A stretch of 64,000 nt of DNA from contig NZ_LKBA01000024.1 in the NCBI RefSeq assembly GCF_001307765.1, positions 62,001 through 126,000 on the forward strand, written 5' to 3'. Below are positions 1 through 16,836 of this stretch, in pieces. Within the stretch, counting starts at the first letter, position 1; each line of letters begins with the position of its first letter. The position numbers and the translations under genes were made by a program. Source of the DNA: Aliiroseovarius crassostreae. GTDB taxonomy: Bacteria > Pseudomonadota > Alphaproteobacteria > Rhodobacterales > Rhodobacteraceae. The notes under the pieces are model-generated. The model ran no database searches. It was not told the origin of the DNA and saw only the letters and a list, made by a program, of their open reading frames with translations.

Positions 1-112
1 TGAAAACATCCACCTGATCCGGACGGATCTTTTCCTGAAATCCCAGCAAGGCCTGATCGACAATATCCGCATGCCATGCGGCCTTGATGAATGCGTAACG
101 GGTGTGTGTCAT
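1..112 (-). CDS. ribH: 6,7-dimethyl-8-ribityllumazine synthase, partial (N-terminus)
   Basis: Only the first 37 codons lie in the window; the gene continues past the left edge. The protein begins MTHTRYAFIKAAWHADIVDQ, which matches the start of the lumazine synthases of alphaproteobacteria (type II, RibH2-like). The enzyme condenses a pyrimidinedione with dihydroxybutanone phosphate in the penultimate step of riboflavin synthesis. The ATG has an AAGGAA ribosome binding site. An FMN riboswitch lies about 100 bases upstream on the same strand, which independently supports a riboflavin role. The type II assignment comes from N-terminal similarity only. Confidence 0.85.
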   Translation of the reverse strand, partial: MTHTRYAFIKAAWHADIVDQALLGFQEKIRPDQVDVF

Positions 113-210
113 GGCGTTTCCTTTCTTCATCAGACACGTCACCCAAGGCGCAAACGAAGAAAGGAGGGCACACGAGGCCCCTCTGCACGCCTGATCCGGC
201 GCACCCTTAC

Positions 211-332
211 CCGCTCTCTTCCATCCGGACTATCACCGTCGGCCCCGGAATTTCACCGGATCTGCTGTCACCCGAACCGGGCCGCTCGCGGGCTTTAACC
301 GCCGGTGGGGAATTGCACCCCGCCCTGAGAAC
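211..332 (-). promoter_or_regulatory. FMN riboswitch (RFN element) upstream of ribH
   Basis: Read on the minus strand, the conserved RFN blocks appear in order: GGGGCGGGGTGCAATTCCCC, ACCGGCGGT, AGCCCGCGAGCG, CAGATCCGGTGAAATTCCGG, GGCCGACGGT and ATAGTCCGGATGG. These are the diagnostic segments of the FMN aptamer. Between the aptamer and ribH is a short GC-rich hairpin followed by CCTTTCTT that could act as the expression platform. Ligand-dependent control of ribH is established for the class; the off-switch mechanism here is inferred. Confidence 0.93.
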
Positions 333-383
333 GGGCAGAACCTGACATGAGTTCCCCGTTGTGGCAAGAGACAGGACACGAAA

Positions 384-1142
384 ATGATCGAGATGCCAGC
401 CGAGCTGTTTGCCCTCCTGCTTGGGGCCGCCTTCGTTGCAGGTTTCGTCGATGCAATTGCAGGGGGCGGGGGGCTGATCACCGTGCCTGCATTGCTTTTG
501 GCGGGGGTGCCACCAGTGACGGCACTGGCGACCAACAAGGTTCAGGGACTGTTCGGGGCCGGAATGGCTGCGGTGACCTATGCGCGCGCAGGCCATGTGA
601 CCCTGCGCCGCCAGATCCGCCCGGCCCTGTTATCCTTTGCCGGCGCAGTTCTTGGCGCGCTGATGGCCTCCTCGCTGCCCACCGATGTGATCCGCATGGG
701 GCTGCCGGTCCTGCTGATCGGCGTGGCGCTGTTCTTTGCGCTGAAGCCCGGGCTTGACGATGTGGACAAACACGAACGCCTCTCTCCCCTTCTGTTTTCG
801 ATCAGCTTCGTGCCCCTGATCGGTTTCTATGACGGGCTGCTCGGCCCCGGCACCGGGGCGTTTTTCATGCTGGGTTTCGTGGGCCTCGCCGGCTATGGCA
901 TCCTGCGCGCCACCGCCCATACGAAATTGCTGAATTTCGCGTCGAATGTCGGCGGGCTGGTTGGGTTCCTGCTGGTGCTGCAGCCGCTCTGGCTGCTCGG
1001 ACTGGCGATGGGAGCGGCACAAATGGCCGGCGCCTGGCTCGGCTCACAACTGGCCAGCCGGATCGGCGCAAGGCTGATCAAACCGGTGCTGGTGATCGCA
1101 GCCTCCGCAATGGCCATCAAACTGATCAGCGAATGGATGTGA
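384..1142 (+). CDS. TSUP (TauE/SafE) family membrane permease
   Basis: A 252-residue, strongly hydrophobic protein with about eight predicted membrane helices, typical of the TauE/SafE (TSUP) family, whose characterised members move sulfite, sulfoacetate or other small anions across the inner membrane. The two internal halves are visible: the first carries GFVDAIAGGGGLITVP and ALATNKVQG, and the second carries the related FYDGLLGPGTGAFF and LLNFASNVGG. The ATG follows a weak ACACGAAA leader and no better start is present. The gene stands alone and is convergent with the asparaginase gene. The substrate cannot be deduced from sequence. Confidence 0.85.
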   Translation: MIEMPAELFALLLGAAFVAGFVDAIAGGGGLITVPALLLAGVPPVTALATNKVQGLFGAGMAAVTYARAGHVTLRRQIRPALLSFAGAVLGALMASSLPTDVIRMGLPVLLIGVALFFALKPGLDDVDKHERLSPLLFSISFVPLIGFYDGLLGPGTGAFFMLGFVGLAGYGILRATAHTKLLNFASNVGGLVGFLLVLQPLWLLGLAMGAAQMAGAWLGSQLASRIGARLIKPVLVIAASAMAIKLISEWM

Positions 1143-1179
1143 CAGCGCGCACGCCGAATTTAACGCAAACCTCGCGCCG

Positions 1180-1345
1180 CTCGGCAGGGGCTTTGCCCCT
1201 CTTGGCTGCGCCAATTCACCCCAGGATATTTCCAACAAGAAAAAAGACGATGGGTCCGCCTTTTCCTCTTGCCCAAAATATCCCGGGGTGAGCCCACGCT
1301 CAGCGAGCGGGAGCGAGGGGCAGCGCCCCTCATCGCGACGCGAAG
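1180..1345. repeat. Family B intergenic repeat, inverted pair
   Basis: Two cores face each other: CACCCCAGGATATTT with AACAAGAAAAAAG, then TTTTCCTCTTGCCCAAAATAT with CCCGGGGTG. Each is flanked by a GC-rich hairpin such as GGGGCTTTGCCCC or GAGGGGCAGCGCCCCTC. The pair lies between two convergent genes, so it could terminate transcription from both sides. Similar copies occur at 4765, 10196, 18060, 23036, 53931 and 54128. Confidence 0.8.
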
Positions 1346-1415
1346 CGGCGCAAATCAGACATGTTTCACAAAGTGACCCTCTGAAGCCGCAGCAGCACCC
1401 AGGCCGAAGGGGGGC

Positions 1416-2432
1416 CTACCCCACCCAAAGCTCTGCCGCCGGCCGGATCTCACCTGTGTCCTGCCCGGCAAAGTTCAGCACCCGCGGGTTCAGGCGCTTT
1501 TTCACCAGCGGGTCCGCCGGATCAGCCACGCCAAGGCGGGCAAGGATTGCGGCGATGGCACATTCGGAGGCGCGGGTCGCGCCATCATTGATCTTGAGCG
1601 CAACCCCAAGCCCCTGCCCCGGCAGGATGGCGATGAAAAAGGCTTCTGCCCCGGTTTTCACGGCAACCTGACCTGGCATGGCGCGCATCAATTCGGTACA
1701 GGCCCGCCCTTCTCCGGCAACCAGATCCGGGTGCGCCATCATTGCTTCGCGCAGCCGCACCATGGCCGTGTCCCGCGCGGAACGCCCCTCAACCGCGCCA
1801 GCAAACGCGGCCATGGCGCGGGCCATACCGGTCAGCGTGGTCGCATGGTTGGGCGCCGAACAGCCGTCGATGCCAAAGCCGGGGCTGTCCATGCCCGTTA
1901 GCTCTTCAAACGCCAGTTTGGCAGCCTGTTGCACCGGGTGATCATGGGCCACGTAATCCTTGAGATCCGCCCCCATGTGGCGGGCAAGCGTCAGGAAGCC
2001 CGCATGTTTGCCAGAGCAGTTATTGTGGATTTTACAGGCGGCATCCCCTGAGCAGATCAGGTCCTTCTTCGCAGCCTTGTCGCGGGGGAATTGCGGACCG
2101 CAGCAGAGGTCCCCGGCTCCGAGCCCCATTTCAGCCAGCCATTTGGCCACCGGATCGGTATGGATTGCCGCCCCTTCATGACTGGCACAGGCCAGTGCCA
2201 GATGGGATGGGTTCAGCCCCGCCGCATCCGCCGCCCCGCTTTCCACCAGAGGCAGGGCCTGAAGCATCTTGGCCGAGGAGCGCGGCAAGATCACCTCATC
2301 GGCATTCCCCCAGCTCTCCACCACCTCACCTGCGGTATTGCAGATCACTGCATGTCCCAGATGTTGCGATTCCATGAACGGGCCGCGCCATATCTCGACA
2401 AGGCGGGCGGGATCTTGCGTGATTGCGGGCAT
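1416..2432 (-). CDS. L-asparaginase II family protein
   Basis: A 338-residue protein of the PF06089 family, the thermolabile rhizobial-type asparaginases unrelated to the classical bacterial enzymes. It is expected to hydrolyse L-asparagine to aspartate and ammonia in the cytoplasm; there is no signal peptide. Family blocks seen are LPRSSAKMLQALPLVESGA, CASHEGAAIH, IHNNCSGKHAG and GIDGCSAPN, which hold the conserved Ser-Lys and Cys residues of the active site. The ATG at 2432 was chosen over a longer frame because it has an AAAGGAAAG ribosome binding site and begins at the conserved domain. It is monocistronic. Confidence 0.87.
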   Translation of the reverse strand: MPAITQDPARLVEIWRGPFMESQHLGHAVICNTAGEVVESWGNADEVILPRSSAKMLQALPLVESGAADAAGLNPSHLALACASHEGAAIHTDPVAKWLAEMGLGAGDLCCGPQFPRDKAAKKDLICSGDAACKIHNNCSGKHAGFLTLARHMGADLKDYVAHDHPVQQAAKLAFEELTGMDSPGFGIDGCSAPNHATTLTGMARAMAAFAGAVEGRSARDTAMVRLREAMMAHPDLVAGEGRACTELMRAMPGQVAVKTGAEAFFIAILPGQGLGVALKINDGATRASECAIAAILARLGVADPADPLVKKRLNPRVLNFAGQDTGEIRPAAELWVG

Positions 2433-2658
2433 GTGTCTTTCCTTTTCTGATCCTTTGCCCATCCGGTGATGGCGGGCGCGCGCAATTTTCCGCCGCATAT
2501 TACCGCTCCGGGGCTTTCACAACAGTCATTTTTCACGTTAGACTGCGCGGCGTAGGGATAGATGCGCCTGAATGTGATGGCATGGAATGGAACGCCGCCA
2601 AAGACGGCCGGGACGTTGCAGGGGCGCGAGGCAGAGACAGCTTGGAGGCTGTAAGGAT

Positions 2659-3213
2659 ATGAAACGAATGATCGCAGCAGCGCGGAGCGCCTTTGTGGCT
2701 GGCGCCGTGCTCACCATTTTCACCGCAACGGGCGCCGTGGCGCAGGAAAGCACCAACCGGGTTGCCGCCAACACCGACTGGAGCGTGTTTGTCGAGGACA
2801 ATCCCACCGGTTGCTGGAGCGTGTCCGCGCCCACCAAAGTGGTCAACACCCGTGACGGGCGGGCTGTGGCGGCAAAGCGCGGCGATATCCGTCTGTTTGT
2901 CAGCTATCACCCCGGCTCTCAGGTGAAGGGGCAGGTTTCCTTTGCTGGCGGTTACCCGTTTGACCGCAACAAGGCGATCACGCTGACCATCGATACGAAA
3001 AGCTATCAGCTTTATTCCGAGGGAAGCCCGCAGAACCGCGAGACAGCCTGGGCCAATCCCAGCGAGGAAGCGCAGATCGTCGCCGCGATGAAACGCGGGG
3101 CCAAGGCGGTTGTCACGGCCTATTCCAGTCGCGGCACCCGGACCGAAGACACGTTCTCGCTGTTGGGTTTCACGGCGGCGGTGGACGAAGCTGCAAAACG
3201 CTGCGGCAACTGA
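2659..3213 (+). CDS. Invasion-associated locus B (IalB) family secreted protein
   Basis: A 184-residue protein with a signal peptide ending near AVAQES. The mature part reads DWSVFVEDNPTGCWSVSAP and later VSYHPGSQVKGQVSFAGGYP, the pattern of the IalB family. Members are periplasmic or envelope proteins of alphaproteobacteria; the name comes from Bartonella and does not imply virulence here. Two cysteines, one in GCWSV and one near the C-terminus, could form a disulfide. The start follows GGAGGCTGTAAGGAT. A terminator follows at 3239, so it is transcribed separately from rlmN. Confidence 0.8.
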   Translation: MKRMIAAARSAFVAGAVLTIFTATGAVAQESTNRVAANTDWSVFVEDNPTGCWSVSAPTKVVNTRDGRAVAAKRGDIRLFVSYHPGSQVKGQVSFAGGYPFDRNKAITLTIDTKSYQLYSEGSPQNRETAWANPSEEAQIVAAMKRGAKAVVTAYSSRGTRTEDTFSLLGFTAAVDEAAKRCGN

Positions 3214-3238
3214 TCCCGGTTATCCGCCCCTGTTTTCC

Positions 3239-3267
3239 AAAGCCCCGCCCGACCGGACGGGGCTTTT
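3239..3267 (+). terminator. Rho-independent terminator after the IalB-like gene
   Basis: Inverted repeat AAAGCCCCG...CGGGGCTTTT with a short GC-rich loop, 25 bases after the stop codon and followed by a T-rich tail. Confidence 0.8.
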
Positions 3268-3337
3268 CATTTCTCTGACCCTGTGTTGTGCATGGGGTGA
3301 CAAGCCTTTCATGCTAGGCTATAGACTGCTGCCTTCT

Positions 3338-3466
3338 AAAGCATTTCAGTTTTGGCCTGACACAGTATTAAGCTGATCGGGACAATGACCGAAACGCGGC
3401 AAGAGATATCAATGATGCGGGTGGTTCGGGGCAAACATGTGTCTCAGGATTTTACCGAACCGCCTT
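3338..3466 (+). repeat. Family A palindromic repeat, degenerate copy
   Basis: Starts TAAAGCATTTCAG and shares CGCGGCAAGAGATATCAATG and ACATGTGTCTCAGG with the better copies at 10074 and 12647, but carries an extra segment and mutated ends. It fills the gap between the IalB-like gene and rlmN and may include part of the rlmN leader. Confidence 0.7.
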
Positions 3467-3484
3467 GTTACAGGATGACGCGCG

Positions 3485-4726
3485 ATGGATCGCAAAGACC
3501 AGACCACGGATACCCAGGCCACGGATACCCAGGCCTCAGCCGGGGCCGCGGCCCCGATTACTCAGGACGTGAAAGTCGCGCCGCGTATTCTGGTTCCCGA
3601 GGTCAAGCCAAACCTCGTGGGCATGACCCGCGACGTGATGCGGGCGGCGCTGATCGACATGGGCACGCCGGAAAAGCAGGCCAAGATGCGGGTGAACCAG
3701 ATCTGGCAATGGATCTATCAATGGGGCAAGCGCGATTTTGCCGAGATGACCAATCTGGCCAAAGCGTTCCGCGCCCAGCTGGCGGAGCATTTCGTGATCG
3801 AAATCCCGGAGGTGGTGTCGAAACTCGTCTCAGAGGATGGCACCCGCAAATATCTGGTGCGCATTGCCGGCGGTCATGAGGTCGAGGTGGTTTATATCCC
3901 CGAGGAAGGGCGCGGCACGCTGTGCATTTCCAGCCAGGTCGGCTGCACGCTGACCTGTTCCTTCTGCCATACCGGCACCCAGAAACTGGTGCGCAACCTG
4001 ACCGCGGCTGAGATTATCGGCCAGGTGATGATGGCGCGCGATGATCTGGATGAATGGCCGGTGCCCGGCGCCCCCAAGGACGAAACCCGCCTTCTGTCCA
4101 ATATCGTGCTGATGGGCATGGGTGAGCCTTTGTATAACTTTGAAAACGTGCGCGACGCGATGAAGATCGCCATGGACCCGGAGGGGATCCAGCTGTCGCG
4201 CCGCCGCATCACGCTGTCGACCTCGGGGATCGTGCCGGAAATCGCCCGCACCGCGCAAGAGATCGGCTGTCTTTTGGCGATTTCCTTCCACGCAACCACC
4301 GATGAAACCCGCGATGTTCTGGTGCCGATCAACAAGCGCTGGAATATTGAAGAGCTTCTGGGGGCGCTGGCGGCCTATCCCAAGGCCTCGAACTCGGAAC
4401 GGATCACCTTTGAATATGTGATGCTGGCAGGGGTGAATGACAGTGACGAGGACGCGCATCGCCTGATCGACCATATCAAGCGCCACAATATCCCCGCCAA
4501 GATCAACCTGATTCCGTTCAACGAATGGCCGGGCAGCCCCTATAAACGGTCCTCGAACAACCGGATCCGGGCCTTTGCCAACATCATCTATCAGGCTGGC
4601 TATGCAAGCCCCATTCGCAAGACACGCGGCGATGATATCATGGCCGCCTGCGGGCAGCTGAAATCAGCCACGGAGCGCGCGCGCAAGTCGCGCAAGCAGA
4701 TCGAAAAAGAAGCGGGGATATCCTGA
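3485..4726 (+). CDS. rlmN: Dual-specificity 23S rRNA (A2503-C2) / tRNA (A37-C2) methyltransferase
   Basis: A 413-residue radical SAM enzyme that methylates C2 of adenosine 2503 in 23S rRNA and, in characterised homologues, A37 of some tRNAs. The iron-sulfur motif CTLTCSFC supplies C154, C158 and C161. The N-terminal accessory domain ([18 protein letters not shown]) and the downstream [10 protein letters not shown] and [10 protein letters not shown] blocks are typical of RlmN. The first 25 residues are a non-conserved tail containing a duplicated TDTQA encoded by a 15-bp tandem repeat. The start at 3485 follows GGATGACGCG; a start nearer MTRD is possible but would lose conserved sequence. Confidence 0.96.
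3504..3533 (+). repeat. 15-bp tandem duplication inside rlmN
   Basis: CCACGGATACCCAGG is present twice in direct succession and encodes the doubled TDTQA near the RlmN N-terminus. The frame is kept. Confidence 0.9.
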
Positions 4727-8979: not shown

Positions 8980-9807
8980 ATGTCGAACGCCCAACTGGAA
9001 CAAGCCATCGAAGCCGCGTGGGACGCCCGCGACACCATCACCTCATCCACCGGCGGTGAAACCCGCGAAGCGATCGAGGCCACGCTGGCCGCGCTGGACA
9101 GCGGCACATTGCGCGTGGCTGAACGTCAGGATGATGGCAACTGGCATGTGAACCAATGGGCCAAAAAGGCCGTGCTGCTGGGGTTCCGCATCAAGGACAT
9201 GGAATTCCAGGATGGCGGCCCGCAGGGCGGCGGCTGGTGGGACAAGGTCGACAGCAAATTCAAGGGCTGGGGCGACCATGAATGGAAAGAAGCAGGCTTC
9301 CGCGCCGTGCCGAACTGCGTTGTGCGCAAGTCGGCCTATGTGGCACCGGGCGCGGTGCTGATGCCCAGCTTTGTGAACCTCGGCGCCTATGTGGACGAAG
9401 GCACCATGGTTGACACCTGGGTGACCGTTGGCTCCTGCGCCCAGATCGGTAAAAACGTGCACCTCTCGGGGGGCGTGGGCATTGGCGGCGTGCTGGAACC
9501 GATGCAGGCAGGCCCGACAATCATCGAAGACAACTGCTTCATCGGCGCGCGCTCCGAAGTGGTCGAAGGCTGCATCGTGCGCGAAGGATCCGTTCTGGGC
9601 ATGGGCGTGTTCATCGGCCAGTCGACCAAGATCGTCGATCGTGAAACCGGCGAAGTGATGTATGGCGAAGTGCCCGCCGGCTCCGTTGTGGTCGCAGGCT
9701 CGATGCCCTCGAAAAACGGTGTGAACCTCTACTGCGCCGTGATCGTGAAACGCGTCGACGCAAAAACCCGTTCGAAAACCTCGATCAACGACCTGTTGCG
9801 CGACTAA
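8980..9807 (+). CDS. dapD: 2,3,4,5-tetrahydropyridine-2,6-dicarboxylate N-succinyltransferase
   Basis: A 275-residue acyltransferase of the left-handed beta-helix type that succinylates tetrahydrodipicolinate in lysine and diaminopimelate synthesis. N-terminal helices are followed by hexapeptide repeats (residues about 105-215), with [20 protein letters not shown] and [11 protein letters not shown] as the DapD-specific blocks. The length is normal. GGAGAG precedes the ATG, and TTGAGC and TTATAC about 80 bases upstream could be a promoter. dapE, two steps later in the pathway, lies 7 kb away at 16837 rather than in the same operon. Confidence 0.97.
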
Positions 9808-9824
9808 AGGATCCGGACGGACCG

Positions 9825-10076
9825 ATGATCTTTGCGACCATCGCGGAAAACATAGGGCGTGCCGGGCCACATGCGCGGCGCGCCCTTGCCATTCTGGACC
9901 TGGGCTGCGTGGCCGGTTTTGGGCTGATCTGTTTTGAACCGCTTATCTTACTGATTTACCTGTTTGGCCTCAGCACCCCCTGGGCGGCGGCGCTGGTAGG
10001 GCTTTTTGTGGCCCTGCTGACCCTTCTGGCCTGGCTCGCCCTCCGAGCCTTTCTCAAACCAGGCAAAGCGCCCTAA
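9825..10076 (+). CDS. Small two-helix membrane protein of unknown function
   Basis: An 83-residue protein with two hydrophobic segments (GLICFEPLILLIYLFGL and ALVGLFVALLTLLAWLAL) after a short basic N-terminus. It starts 17 bases after dapD and is probably co-transcribed. No family recognised. The TAA stop codon lies inside the left end of the family A repeat at 10074, so the repeat defines the present C-terminus and the ancestral protein may have been longer. Confidence 0.6.
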   Translation: MIFATIAENIGRAGPHARRALAILDLGCVAGFGLICFEPLILLIYLFGLSTPWAAALVGLFVALLTLLAWLALRAFLKPGKAP

Positions 10077-10279: not shown

Positions 10280-11362
10280 TCAGCTTGACGGACCAAAATA
10301 TTTGCGCCGGAGCTGATCATATCGCCCACTTTCACGCAAAGACAGCAGCGCCCGATTGATCGGTTCGGTCAGGGCGCTGCCCGATGGCAAGGCGATGCCA
10401 TAGTTTTCACGTTTGAACACCCGCGGCAGAAGACGACCCGACTGGCTGCCATTTTCAGTAAGATACCACGCCAGAAGCGGCCCATCGAAGACAACCGCGT
10501 CAAGTTCCTGCTCTTCAAACGCTTTCAGCAACACGTTCAGGTCATCGAAATCACCATGGGCAATCTCGCGCTGGTCCAGAAACAGCGCAGCCGTTGAGCC
10601 TGCCGTGGTGCCAATACGCTTGCCGTCAAGGTCCGCGAGGCTGTCGATATTGCCGGAAATCGCCGCCACGGTCATGGCCGCGGTGATCCGGGCGACAAAA
10701 ATCGACACGATGAACAGGGATGAAATCACCAGAAGGACACCAAAGACGCGCCCACCGCGCGACTGCGGCACCCGTTCTTCGAACCCCCCATTCACAACAA
10801 GGTTCAGGGCCCACCAGAAAGAGGTGAACATTGCATCTTTCAGCGGCCGGTCAAAATAGGGCTGACGGCGGCGTTCGAACAGCCACATCATCATGCCCCC
10901 GCCATACAGAAGCGCCGCGGCCCCCAGGATGGCCAATGCAATATCGCGGTTGAACAATGCGGCAAACAAGCTGCCGCTATCGCCATCTTCGGGTGGCAAC
11001 ATGATCTGGAGCCCCGCTTCGAAGGTGGGTTGGGAAAAGTCCATAACTTCCTCACGGGCCGCCGTGATCGAGATATTGGCAACCGCGCCATCCACCTGCC
11101 CAAGCTCAACCAACCCAAGCATATCGGCAAAACGCGGGGCCAGTTTGAACTCCACGGGCCGCCCGATCTCTCTTCCGATATCTCGCATCAGCTCAACCGA
11201 AAACCCGGCAAACTGATCCCCATCCCGATAGGCAAAAGGCGCGCGTTCCACGGTGGCGAAGATCAGTGCCGATCCAGTATTCGACTGGGCCGCCAGCGCC
11301 TGTGGAACAAGCAGCAGCACAAGGCCGATCAACATCGGCAGATTGCGGATATATGGAATCAT
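10280..11362 (-). CDS. Prokaryotic glutamate receptor-like ligand-gated ion channel
   Basis: A 360-residue protein with the GluR0 architecture: signal peptide (1-25), first half of a family 3 solute-binding domain (30-125), membrane helix M1 (142-163), pore loop (177-201), membrane helix M2 (206-232), then the second half of the binding domain (240-355). Amino acid binding outside would gate an inner-membrane pore. In GluR0-type channels the pore loop carries a TVGYG potassium filter. Here an ungapped comparison from WWA to RVP places VNGGFEE at that position. The ATG at 11362 follows AGGTGGGGA; a GTG five codons earlier is less likely. A plain solute-binding protein is excluded by the central membrane insert. 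Ion selectivity is unknown. Confidence 0.85.
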   Translation of the reverse strand: MIPYIRNLPMLIGLVLLLVPQALAAQSNTGSALIFATVERAPFAYRDGDQFAGFSVELMRDIGREIGRPVEFKLAPRFADMLGLVELGQVDGAVANISITAAREEVMDFSQPTFEAGLQIMLPPEDGDSGSLFAALFNRDIALAILGAAALLYGGGMMMWLFERRRQPYFDRPLKDAMFTSFWWALNLVVNGGFEERVPQSRGGRVFGVLLVISSLFIVSIFVARITAAMTVAAISGNIDSLADLDGKRIGTTAGSTAALFLDQREIAHGDFDDLNVLLKAFEEQELDAVVFDGPLLAWYLTENGSQSGRLLPRVFKRENYGIALPSGSALTEPINRALLSLRESGRYDQLRRKYFGPSS

Positions 11363-11546
11363 GACGAAGGTCCCCACCTACAGTGTTGCCCGCTCTATAC
11401 CCTTTGCAGGCACGGGGCTAGGGCAGGAAAGCGATACCCCCGCGCCTCTTGCCTTCCTGCAACAGCGCAGGCGACATCAGAGGGCTGGACCTTTCGCAGA
11501 TTTTTCGGCATGTGAAAGACAGATCCCAATCCTGCTGCAGGAGAGC

Positions 11547-11927
11547 ATGATGACCCAGAACCCGAAAGCTGCGGCCAAGCCGAAGAAGAAACAGCAGGTC
11601 TATACGCTGCTGGTCGAAGTGGGCCGCAAGGAGGGGGACGGGTTGCCGGATGAGGCCACCGGGGGCGCGCTTGTCTGCTATGCGTCAGGTGTGGACGAAG
11701 CGGAAGCGGTGCGCGAAACGGTTGCGATCCTGAAGCAGGCCGATCTGGCCCCGCTGGATGTGTCGGGCTACGGCGCGCTGGATGACCGGCTGGCGGAAGG
11801 ACACGATATTCCTGCGGAAGAGCGCAAGCTGATGGGGCGTGCCCTGGCTGAAAACTCGGTGGTCATCGCGCAGATGACCCCGTTTTTTGATGGCGAACGT
11901 CTGGATGATGCCGCGGGTGAAGCATGA
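11547..11927 (+). CDS. Hypothetical protein co-transcribed with a HAD phosphatase
   Basis: A 126-residue soluble protein with a lysine-rich N-terminus (MTQNPKAAAKPKKKQQ) and a compact acidic alpha/beta-like remainder. No family recognised with confidence. CAGGAGAG precedes tandem ATG codons; the first at 11547 is used, the second at 11550 is equally possible. The stop overlaps the start of the next gene by four bases (ATGA), which indicates translational coupling with the phosphatase. Confidence 0.75.
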   Translation: MMTQNPKAAAKPKKKQQVYTLLVEVGRKEGDGLPDEATGGALVCYASGVDEAEAVRETVAILKQADLAPLDVSGYGALDDRLAEGHDIPAEERKLMGRALAENSVVIAQMTPFFDGERLDDAAGEA

Positions 11928-13715: not shown

Positions 13716-14942
13716 TCACGCGTAAATGGCGCTGACCAGATTGCGCGCCTCGAACTGGGACAGGGTGGGCGTGGGCATCAGCCTGTGAATTGGCACGGAG
13801 AGGGGTGGCAGCCCGGACAGAACCGTGGTGCGCAGGATATCCGGCACCATCGGCCCCACAAACAGGCTTTCGGCACACAGCCCCTGCACCGACAGGCATT
13901 CATGACTGTCCAGCAGGACCGCATGATATCGGATCAGCGGGCCGGTTTCATGCTGGCTTGCAGCGCGGAAATGATGCAGGTGCCGCGCCTGGATCATCAC
14001 CGAATCCCTGCCATAAAGATATTCCGCGTCACTCCCTGTCAGAACAAGACGTTGATCGGGCAACAGCACCAGATCCCGCGACAGCCCCATGAAAGGCGCA
14101 CGCAATGTCATTGGGCGCATCAACCCCACTGCCGGAACCTGCCGACTGGCCAGATAACGGACCCGGTGCGCCTCTCCTGAGGTGCTGAGCACAAGATCTC
14201 CGGCCGTCAGGGTTTCCACCGCACGTGGCCCCATCGGTGTGTCGATCAGACTGCCACTGGCAAGACCCGGTGCCAGCGCCACGGGCGCGATCCCGCGCGC
14301 GATCCCAAGCATCAGGATCTTGCCCCGCTCCCCGGCCACGGCCTGCCCCCGCAGCATCCGCTCCGCGTCAGAATAGGGCAGCGGCAGTGGATCGCGAAAA
14401 CGGGTCTGGTGCAGGGTCTCGGCTTCAAGATGTTCAACACTCAAAACCCCCGACCGGCACGGGGCATCCCAGCTATAGGTGATGCGCAGGTCACATTCGC
14501 CGATGATCGGCGCCACATGAACCGAGGCACGGCGCAGCTCATCCCCCTGCACCATATCCACCACAACCCGGTGGTCATCCGGGTGATAGGTGATCATCAT
14601 CCCGCGCAGCCATCCCTCGCGCGCGCCATAACGCAGCACCGGGGCGGGCTGGCCGGGCCGGGGCTCCAGCCGGGCTTCGATCACGATGGTTCCGGTGGCA
14701 ATCAGCCCCTGTGGGCCCGGATCAGATGAGGCCGGACAGGCAGCCGACGGGGCAACATCCCTACTGCCGCCGATGAGGCCACAGCGGTTGAACCACAGCT
14801 TTCCCGCCCCCCGGACACCGATCCAGGAGACCGACCCCGCCAGAAGCCTGCGCGATTTGGCAACAAGCCGCGCTGCGGATGGATCAGAGCACAAAGCTGT
14901 CTTTGTCCCCCGCCTGTCCTCAGCTTGCCGATGCCCTGTCAT
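13716..14942 (-). CDS. Hint-domain protein lacking the N-terminal cysteine nucleophile
   Basis: A 408-residue protein. Residues 80-215 form a beta-rich domain (IATGTIVIEARLE, MMITYHPDDHRVVV), and residues 225-370 a Hedgehog/intein (Hint_2-type) domain recognised by SLIDTPMGPRAVETLTAGDL and LLPDQRLVL. Aligning with the neighbour's CFVAGTLIELADG puts GLASGSLIDTPMG here, so the splicing or cleavage Cys is replaced by Gly226. There is no standard signal peptide. The gene starts 11 bases after the stop of the upstream Hint gene, and its AAGGAAAG ribosome binding site overlaps that stop, so the two form an operon. Autoprocessing is unlikely unless another residue serves. Confidence 0.8.
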   Translation of the reverse strand: MTGHRQAEDRRGTKTALCSDPSAARLVAKSRRLLAGSVSWIGVRGAGKLWFNRCGLIGGSRDVAPSAACPASSDPGPQGLIATGTIVIEARLEPRPGQPAPVLRYGAREGWLRGMMITYHPDDHRVVVDMVQGDELRRASVHVAPIIGECDLRITYSWDAPCRSGVLSVEHLEAETLHQTRFRDPLPLPYSDAERMLRGQAVAGERGKILMLGIARGIAPVALAPGLASGSLIDTPMGPRAVETLTAGDLVLSTSGEAHRVRYLASRQVPAVGLMRPMTLRAPFMGLSRDLVLLPDQRLVLTGSDAEYLYGRDSVMIQARHLHHFRAASQHETGPLIRYHAVLLDSHECLSVQGLCAESLFVGPMVPDILRTTVLSGLPPLSVPIHRLMPTPTLSQFEARNLVSAIYA

Positions 14943-14953
14943 TCCATCTTTCC

Positions 14954-16540
14954 TTACGCCGCGTGGCCCTGCGCCGCCAGAAGCCGCGCCTCAAACGGGC
15001 GCAGGGTGCGGCGGGCGGCCGGGGAGTATCCCGCGCCGGTCAGGGGATCAAGCTCAGGGAACAGCGCGCAGATTTCTTCCACCGCGTCATGTTCAAGACT
15101 GTTTGTCGCCTGCGGGCCGGGCAGGAAACTCTCGGTGGCAAGCCCCTGTGAATAGACCACCTGATGCTGATCAAACAGGATGTGAACATACACCACCTCC
15201 TCCCCTTCGATCCGCCGCACCGTCAGGTCATTGACCAGATCACGCGCCGCAACCAGCACCTCGCGCTCGCCGAACAGAAGCTCGGCCAGGACATCGCGGA
15301 TCAGGATCCGGTGCAGCGGTGACACAAGCAGGTGGTCGTGATCGCCAAACGTATCTGCCGCAATATGGATCGGGGCAAATTTGCCCTGGGCGGGGACGCG
15401 GCGACAGCCGATCCAGCGCAGCGGCTGGGGCCCATTGTCATGGGTCAGCACCATGTCCCCCGGCGTCAGGGTTTCCACCGGCACCGCCCGTCCGTCTGCC
15501 AGTTCGATCAATGTGCCTGCCACGAAACAGGGCACAGCATCGACCGTGACCATCCCCACATCGCTGACCCCTGACGGGCCTCCGGTAAGGGTATATGTGA
15601 AGGAGAAGCTTTCATCGGTGCCATCGCCCACAAGCGTCAGCGTGCCATCCGCGTTCAGCCCCACGGTCTGCCCGGTGGCCAGGGTCACCGTATCGCCGGG
15701 GGACACGGCAATTCCGTTGATATGGGTGATCGTGGCACTCAGCCCGGGCGCCACATCATCATTTGCCATGACGTCGATCACCTTGGTCTGGTCCCCCAGC
15801 AGGCTGACCGTATCATCAAAGGCCAGAAGCGCCGACTGTCCGCTTTTGGCGGCAATCAGAAGATTGGAATCATAGCTGCTGTCCGACACATCCGCGATGC
15901 CGATCTTCAGCGAGTTCACCTCGCCCGAGGTAACCGGGATCTTGACCGACATGGTAACCGTAAACCCGTCCATCTCGGTATTGAACTGGTCCCCGGTATT
16001 GTCGTTATAGAGGTTCTGGTTATCGACCTCGTTCACATTGGTCACGCTTGAGGTGCCAAAAGACAGGTCAACCGGCTGGCCATCTACCCAGACCCCCACC
16101 ACATCATTGTAGATCGAGTTGATGTATTCCGGGTATTCATCCGATGAGAATACGAACTGCAACGAGATGAAATTCGTCTCCGGGTCGGGGATGAAATCAA
16201 TCTCGATAAAGGAGGCGTCATAGGTCCGCGCACCCGCCAACGCATCGAAATCAGCGTCCCGGTCAATGCCAAGCCACATATTCGACGATTGGTTGTTATC
16301 CTGGTTTGCCTGCCCCGATGAATTGGTGAAATCCGCCACCCGCCCCGTCGAGAGGATGACGCCGCTGTCAGAGGGAGTCACACCGGGCGAGGTCTCATCC
16401 CCGCCGGAGAAAACACCCGAGCTGCGATTGTCGCCCGAATAGGACGCGCCGGTCACGGTGACACCATCGCCCATGATGGTTTCCGCCATGGCCAAGGCAC
16501 TTGCATTTGTGTCGATCGAAAGCTCTGACGCCGCGACCAT
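14954..16540 (-). CDS. Choice-of-anchor L plus Hint domain secreted protein
   Basis: A 528-residue protein. Residues 15-240 are a choice-of-anchor L domain (FIEIDFIPDPETNFISLQFV, FSSDEYPEYINSIYNDVVGV), then a cadherin-like or Ig-like spacer (245-335), then a Hint_2 domain starting at Cys338 in VPCFVAGTLIELADGRAVPV. There is no N-terminal signal peptide, so export may use a C-terminal type I signal. The ATG at 16540 follows a perfect AGGAGG. Proteins of this layout are common in Rhodobacterales and are thought to be extracellular or surface-bound and to cleave themselves at the Hint Cys. The first gene of an operon with the Hint protein at 13716. Confidence 0.85.
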   Translation of the reverse strand: MVAASELSIDTNASALAMAETIMGDGVTVTGASYSGDNRSSGVFSGGDETSPGVTPSDSGVILSTGRVADFTNSSGQANQDNNQSSNMWLGIDRDADFDALAGARTYDASFIEIDFIPDPETNFISLQFVFSSDEYPEYINSIYNDVVGVWVDGQPVDLSFGTSSVTNVNEVDNQNLYNDNTGDQFNTEMDGFTVTMSVKIPVTSGEVNSLKIGIADVSDSSYDSNLLIAAKSGQSALLAFDDTVSLLGDQTKVIDVMANDDVAPGLSATITHINGIAVSPGDTVTLATGQTVGLNADGTLTLVGDGTDESFSFTYTLTGGPSGVSDVGMVTVDAVPCFVAGTLIELADGRAVPVETLTPGDMVLTHDNGPQPLRWIGCRRVPAQGKFAPIHIAADTFGDHDHLLVSPLHRILIRDVLAELLFGEREVLVAARDLVNDLTVRRIEGEEVVYVHILFDQHQVVYSQGLATESFLPGPQATNSLEHDAVEEICALFPELDPLTGAGYSPAARRTLRPFEARLLAAQGHAA

Positions 16541-16836
16541 GATCTGCCTCCTGCCCCTTTCAAGAGGCAAAAGCACAGGAATCACAGGCCTTATCTCGGC
16601 CTCTTCATGGATCACTGCATAACGAGCCGCTGCACTTTTGTGCTTGTTTTTCAGCTCCTTACCCTGCCTCGGGTCATATTATTGCCCCAAATATGGCGCA
16701 GAATTGACGTTTTGTTAACCCTCACGTTGCGCTTTTCCCAAAGCTTCGCGCCAAGTGACGCATTTTCCCCACAGCGATGATCCCCTGGTTTTCCTTTGCC
16801 CCACAACGCGCTAAGGGATGGAGAAAGGAGTTCCCC

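Follow-up and report, generated by a model that had tools for sequence, protein, structure and literature searches.

The gene at 10280-11362 on the minus strand of the window (the whole 64,000-nucleotide stretch of DNA that was analysed) encodes a prokaryotic ionotropic glutamate receptor (iGluR) that carries NGGFEE in the alignment columns of the K+ filter, and its sequence and predicted structure indicate that the product is probably an amino-acid-gated cation channel without K+ selectivity, possibly permeable to Ca2+. From the filter residues, it is reasonable to expect that K+ selectivity has been lost and that the pore has an acidic ring. The position of Asn191 on the Q/R/N site, an Asn clade fixed beside dapD, a Gln clade, and Arg once per clade go beyond what the papers seen describe and may be new; in a search of open-access titles and the starts of abstracts, no description of Q/R/N-site residues in bacterial receptors was found.

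The receptor gene has 360 codons and a stop in one open frame. The mechanical ORF extends to a GTG at 11377. By eye, the better start was judged to be the ATG at 11362, which is preceded by AGGTGG at a distance of about 11 bases. According to Pfam, a family-3 solute-binding domain is split around a ligand-gated channel domain, with a single SBP_bac_3 profile spread across residues 39-357 (84.7 bits) and Lig_chan at residues 149-248 (43.9 bits), both above cut-off; the receptor is the sole Lig_chan match of its genome. Pfam and the model give the order S1-M1-pore loop-M2-S2, in which S1 and S2 flank two transmembrane (TM) helices and a pore loop, and the protein of 360 aa has two TM helices and one pore helix, and neither an N-terminal domain nor M4. 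On the split binding domain, two membrane helices and pore loop that had been described in an earlier note on this DNA, Pfam and AlphaFold agree. The gene and its parts are listed below.

10280-11362, minus strand: the whole prokaryotic iGluR of 360 aa, with NGGFEERVP as its filter (frame, Pfam, PDB match, model)
11288-11362, minus strand: probable signal peptide, residues 1-25 (translation, judged by eye)
10991-11275, minus strand: residues 30-124, the S1 half of the ligand-binding domain, including Arg103 (alignment, model)
10877-10948, minus strand: M1 helix, residues 139-162 (model)
10790-10843, minus strand: pore helix, residues 174-191 (model)
10766-10792, minus strand: filter NGGFEERVP, residues 191-199 (codons, alignment)
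10655-10759, minus strand: residues 202-236, the M2 helix, which corresponds to M3 of eukaryotic receptors (model, alignment)
10292-10654, minus strand: S2 half of the ligand-binding domain, residues 237-357, including Asp293 (alignment, model)

The codons at 10766-10792 translate to NGGFEERVP (residues 191-199). In K+-type relatives, some of them from the same bacterial family, TVGYGDKxP occupies exactly these alignment columns, and therefore the register in which NGGFE and a second Glu had been proposed to replace the K+ filter is right. The loop length had been said to be that of the GluR0 class, and the WW-to-Pro span is indeed equal to that of TVGYG-type relatives such as FWWAAVTMTTVGYGDKAP; bacterial TVGYG homologues have TVGYG at the filter column only and not at another position. 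Close homologues (33 rows from 32 genomes, its own included) have NGGFEER in 32 rows and NGSFEER in 1, and the filter in the 80 named loci, which are the top-scoring 80 among the 363 relatives found, is NGGFEE in 76, NGGFEQ in 3 and RGGSEQ in 1. Filter codons drift synonymously at third positions in the 76 loci counted among these best 80 of 363, and a filter conserved across homologues while third codon positions vary is not kept by chance.

Conservation was calculated, and the structure modelled, from an alignment of 64 rows, consisting of the window protein and 63 of the 80 named loci (best 80 of 363). Gly192, Gly193 and Glu195 are present in all 64 rows, Asn191 and Phe194 in 63 each, and Glu196 in 60. 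Averaged by region, the share of the top residue falls from 0.92 (filter) through 0.84 (pore helix), 0.77 (M2), 0.66 (M1) and 0.65 (S1) to 0.64 (S2), so that residues 191-199 are the most conserved region among those compared; this ranking, together with the synonymous codon drift, speaks for a used pore.

The AlphaFold2 monomer model built on this alignment (mean pLDDT 83.6, pTM 0.63) has M1 at 139-162, a pore helix at 174-191 ending at Asn191, a loop at 192-201 and M2 at 202-236; confidence in the filter is moderate (mean pLDDT 74 over residues 191-200), which was counted against the channel reading. In a Foldseek search with the receptor model, AMPA receptor chains occurred throughout the 50 matches listed (best E 1e-22). 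By VIA-align, the top Z belonged to binding domains of ABC transporters (4oen, Z 27.5), with Z 26.2 for 2pyy, the ligand-binding core of Nostoc punctiforme GluR0 in complex with L-glutamate (212 residues, 39% identity), and Z 24.4 for the AMPA receptor LBD-TMD chain 9hpc_C (319 residues, rmsd 3.9). Pore helix, short loop and M2 are superposable on AMPA receptors, so that in this monomer model the loop is re-entrant as in iGluRs, and not the non-re-entrant loop that the earlier note had allowed for.

By HMMER alignment with GluA2, Asn191 stands opposite the Q/R site, where QQGCD has its first Gln, and Glu195 stands opposite the Asp of QQGCD, with Glu196 one residue beyond the Asp position and the AMPA receptor loop one residue shorter; with GluN1, the loop is equal in length and the Asn, second Gly, second Glu and Pro are identical. 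The eukaryotic iGluR pattern of a Q/R/N residue and an acid at +4 is present in the receptor as Asn191 and Glu195, the register of the acid being ambiguous by one. In PMC12226733, the Q/R/N site is given as the narrowest, selectivity-governing point, occupied by Asn in NMDA receptors, Asn or Gln at this site is said to give largely non-selective monovalent pores, and the acid at +4 to be involved in polyamine block. The same text assigns to GluR0 a '+4 aspartate equivalent' in a register different from that of the HMMER alignment; with this assignment and the shorter AMPA receptor loop, the +4 register may shift by one residue, which was counted against the channel reading. Members of the Asn clade have Glu in both candidate registers, and NGGFEE is better read as the eukaryotic Q/R/N arrangement, with Asn at the site and the acid at +4/+5.

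When the M1-P-M2 segment was searched alone, AMPA receptors came first (8vj6, 9e-6) and the 60 of 209 matches listed were all glutamate receptors; with M1-P-M2 of the TVGYG relative L039, Kv channels came first (1e-11), and plant GLR3.4 (2e-10) and GluN1 (2.4e-9) were also matched. Pore segments were scored pairwise as shuffle z (2000 shuffles each, no shuffle reaching the real score). The window receptor gave z of 18.9 with L039, 15.9 with L172, 15.1 with Kv1.2 (a shorter segment), 13.7 with L037, 10.2 with GluN1 and 9.7 with GluA2, and L039 gave 16.9 with GluN1 and 18.4 with GluA2, above the scores of the window receptor. Since L039 and Kv1.2 score above GluN1 and GluA2, and L039 is closer to both, the receptor has no special kinship with eukaryotic filters, and convergence appears a likelier cause of the likeness than descent. 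Descent of eukaryotic pores from the Asn clade is not supported, as L039 is nearer to GluN1 and GluA2 by shuffle z. SYTANLAAF, the gating motif of eukaryotic iGluRs, is absent, and SIFVARITAAM stands at the aligned place in M2; this too was counted against the channel reading.

The ligand-binding domain is two-lobed and of the periplasmic type. Among solved structures, the receptor is closest in sequence to the bacterial iGluR homologue 2pyy; binding proteins and AMPA receptors rank next. Arg103 and Asp293 occur in 64/64 rows of the alignment, and Ser256 and Thr257 in 63 each; the positions of Arg103 and Asp293 align with their counterparts in 2pyy. An S1 Arg and an S2 Asp are the glutamate contacts kept across the two groups of prokaryotic receptors, Groups 1 and 2, according to PMC2950845, and the ligand of the window receptor is likely an amino acid, judging from these residues. 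We infer a mechanism in which four subunits would form a cation pore of inverted K+-channel topology, and an amino acid (glutamate or similar) would close the clamshell and thereby pull M2 open. Asn191, at the Q/R/N site, would form a ring at the narrowest point, with Gly-Gly behind it and, towards the cytoplasm, a second ring made of Glu195/Glu196. A pore of this kind would be expected to lack K+ selectivity and to let mixed monovalent cations through, possibly Ca2+ as well, so that an external amino acid may cause depolarisation or Ca2+ entry.

The receptor gene lies between two neighbours on the opposite strand.

8980-9807, plus strand: dapD, convergent neighbour downstream of the receptor (on the same side in 73/80 named loci, best 80 of 363)
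11550-11927, plus strand: divergent neighbour, about 125 aa, no Pfam match (frame)

Among the best 80 of 363 relatives, the gap between dapD and the receptor is below 1 kb in 58 of the 73 loci (range 2-3749, stop-to-stop frames). Of these 80 loci, 76 have the divergent small gene close to the receptor on the other strand, at a median of about 200 bases upstream (range -2584 to 2145). A small hydrophobic frame without a Pfam match lies between dapD and the receptor (9825-10076, plus strand) and recurs in 2 of these 80 loci. Further along the window are a choice-of-anchor L protein (14954-16615, minus strand, NF038133) and its neighbour (13716-14942, minus strand), with similar frames in 44 and 49 of the same 80, respectively.

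Within the genus, the receptor was found in 10/21 genomes and dapD in 20/21. Ten of the 20 dapD loci have the receptor, and in the other 10 dapD stands directly beside the divergent small gene; the receptor gene is thus dispensable, which was counted against the channel reading, and from this neighbourhood it is an accessory gene at a fixed site. Inheritance with loss accounts for this history better than wandering does, and a single-site gain is a possible alternative. A functional link to dapD was rejected because the genes are convergent and form no operon and because half of the dapD loci of the genus have no receptor; dapD marks a stable site and not a pathway.

In the bacterial family of the host, the receptor is matched at E 7.6e-100 or better in 33/149 genomes, looser matches including ordinary binding proteins. 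One clade member (G064:C299) matches in two overlapping frames, one with an internal TGA, and is probably a broken copy or an assembly error. In the class, a search with the clade profile at 1e-25 picked out 8/385 genomes, of which three belong to that family; no NGGFEE was found in the pores read outside the family in this search, the nearest filter there being MGGFEKEVP in L159. No relative was found on viral contigs with the search patterns used. Plasmids gave 103 matching records, 23 of them over at least 80% of the query, with all listed identities below 60%, and there was no NGGFEE in the eight plasmid loci read. Full-length iGluR-like proteins with about 24% identity are encoded on Salmonella enterica plasmids (matches H20-H23).

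The filter column was counted in a wide sample of 88 distinct full-length rows. At the position of Asn191 there are 20 Asn (19 of the clade and L035, with NASF), 20 Thr of GYG-type K+ filters, 13 Gln, 12 Ser, 10 other Thr, 4 Lys, 3 Arg and 2 Gly, while Asp, Leu, Met and Ala occur once each. Gln was found in rows from the family of genome G705, in which 23/149 genomes have a match at 1e-40, and from a Rhizobium tumorigenes plasmid (L048); their typical loops are QRGIGNFGP and QRSSAEKGP, with the +4 acid mostly absent. Arg stands at the Q/R/N column in L188 (genome G986; RRGNVDYSP), within the Gln group, and in Tateyamaria omphalii L104 (RGGSEQ), within the Asn clade; of the three Arg rows in the wide sample, L049 and L170 belong to a different, unlike pore class. 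At the Q/R site of animal receptors, Arg arises by RNA editing, and L104 and L188 are a genomic counterpart of the edited site.

Other loops were also observed. L049, L054, L167 and L170 (Vibrio, Photobacterium and relatives) have an R/KGPFNY(F/Y)EF loop and a long tree branch. L040, L051, L052, L053, L055, L157, L158 and L160 form a further iGluR-like clade with the basic loop SGxxxxRKNLFG, which, having no cation filter, may not be a cation pore. On one contig of genome G282, two distinct iGluR-like genes, L142 and L144, lie about 4 kb from each other in the same orientation, and each has a loop of its own.

Two trees were built, one of 64 rows with all columns and one of 53 rows with the filter columns removed, both rooted at the midpoint only. 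In the 64-row tree, the NGGFE rows form one group (99/97), beside other non-K+ clades and three K+ rows. In the 53-row tree, the Gln rows and L188 form one group (100/99) among K+-type rows (support of 100/98 for the 26-row group and 82/94 for the 23-row group); the Asn rows and L104 are grouped (98/95; 99/97 with L153) outside the 26-row group, and the three K+ rows previously near the Asn clade shifted across a weak branch (79/56). Because the groups stay separate without the filter columns, the two filters look independent, Asn marking one clade and Gln a second, separate alphaproteobacterial clade among K+-type receptors. It is possible, though somewhat doubtful, that the K+ filter was left more than once and that Q/R/N-type pores were reached independently, with Asn in Rhodobacterales beside dapD, with Gln, and with Arg encoded once per clade.

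Other explanations of the receptor were weighed against a conducting pore. The fold could have been kept in a non-conducting receptor, in which ligand binding is relayed to partner proteins or the membrane domain serves just to anchor a sensor; this would agree with the missing K+ filter, with the very different or shortened pores of other clades and with the absence of the gene at a clean site in 10/20 genus-mates. A dead pore would, however, decay faster than the ligand-binding domain, whereas the filter is the most conserved region compared and is kept despite codon drift, with Glu195 in every row, and a non-conducting receptor is unlikely. The automatic names ('transporter substrate-binding domain-containing protein' and 'glutamine ABC transporter, periplasmic') imply a membrane-tethered solute-binding protein of an amino acid ABC transporter, and both the best NCBIfam full-family profiles (GlnH and LAO-binding proteins, below cut-off) and the top structural Z of 4oen agree with them; M1-P-M2 nevertheless interrupts the binding domain between S1 and S2 in iGluR order, no permease or ATPase was found among the neighbours examined in the window, and the assignment is quite improbable.

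Poorer still are the prospects of a K+-selective channel that works like GluR0 through an unorthodox filter. TVGYG relatives are in register, the pore segment scores higher with them, and Gly193 and an aromatic residue at 194 are retained, but nearly the whole clade has other residues in place of the Thr, the Val and the second Gly of TVGYG, with Glu standing for that Gly, and other members of the same bacterial family (L037-L039 and L041-L044) have the canonical filter, so that the change does not come from a local misreading. The reading preferred here is a cation channel that is gated by an amino acid and is not K+-selective. If the independent Q/R/N-type pores are real, bacteria would hold natural amino-acid-gated mixed-cation or Ca2+ channels, and the whole Q/R/N series would be open to study in a minimal two-TM architecture. 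A conserved Asn clade and a Gln clade would show that the non-selective pore type arose in bacteria too, would offer minimal 360-residue models of an NMDA-like filter, and would raise the question of whether amino-acid-gated depolarisation or Ca2+ entry is used by bacteria.

The protein YP_168531.1 is from Ruegeria (Silicibacter) pomeroyi. The R. pomeroyi genome gave 8 matches at 1e-6, just one of which is a full-length receptor, with NGGFEER. YP_168531.1 is included in the receptor list of Ger et al. 2010 (PMC2950845), who described 22 prokaryotic receptors of this topology. Twelve of them have the K+ filter and make up Group 1; the 10 that lack it are Group 2, whose P regions have no recognised likeness to any channel with known selectivity. 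Group 2 and the window receptor share the order S1-M1-P-M2-S2, with S1/S2 flanking the TM helices, the absence of an ATD and of M4, the S1 Arg and S2 Asp, the lack of a K+ filter and a P region unlike that of any channel with known selectivity, and Group 2 probably contains the lineage of the window receptor. Most Group 2 members have a cleavable signal peptide, and residues 1-25 of the window receptor may be one, judging by eye. Since Group 2 was described in 2010 and the R. pomeroyi receptor has NGGFEER, the kind was already known; unlike the present analysis, the available part of PMC2950845 has no filter-residue analysis, dapD location or Asn-site clade. Passages of PMC12551409 and PMC11479355 discuss the bacterial receptors in terms of GluR0, which is K+-selective, and assign non-selective pores to eukaryotes. 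The earlier note was right in direction, the K+ filter being replaced in register, and not in taking GluR0 as its only yardstick, because the closest solved ligand-binding domain by sequence is that of the Nostoc punctiforme homologue and the receptors without a K+ filter are Group 2 of PMC2950845. The binding of divalent ions by the acidic pair, which the note had suggested, is possible.

Among the known systems, that GluR0 homologue of Nostoc punctiforme (2pyy core, L-glutamate-bound) is the closest by sequence among solved ligand-binding domains, with the 39% identity given above. The cyanobacterial relative from Kovacikia (L050) differs from the window receptor in its shorter, unlike loop. 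The K+-selective Synechocystis GluR0 (Group 1) has the same architecture and loop length as the window receptor but has TVGYG, which is absent here. NMDA and AMPA receptors differ in having an N-terminal domain, M4 and SYTANLAAF, and in showing no special sequence kinship, but share with the window receptor the ligand-binding and pore fold and an Asn or Gln at the apex of the pore helix with an acid 4-5 residues on.
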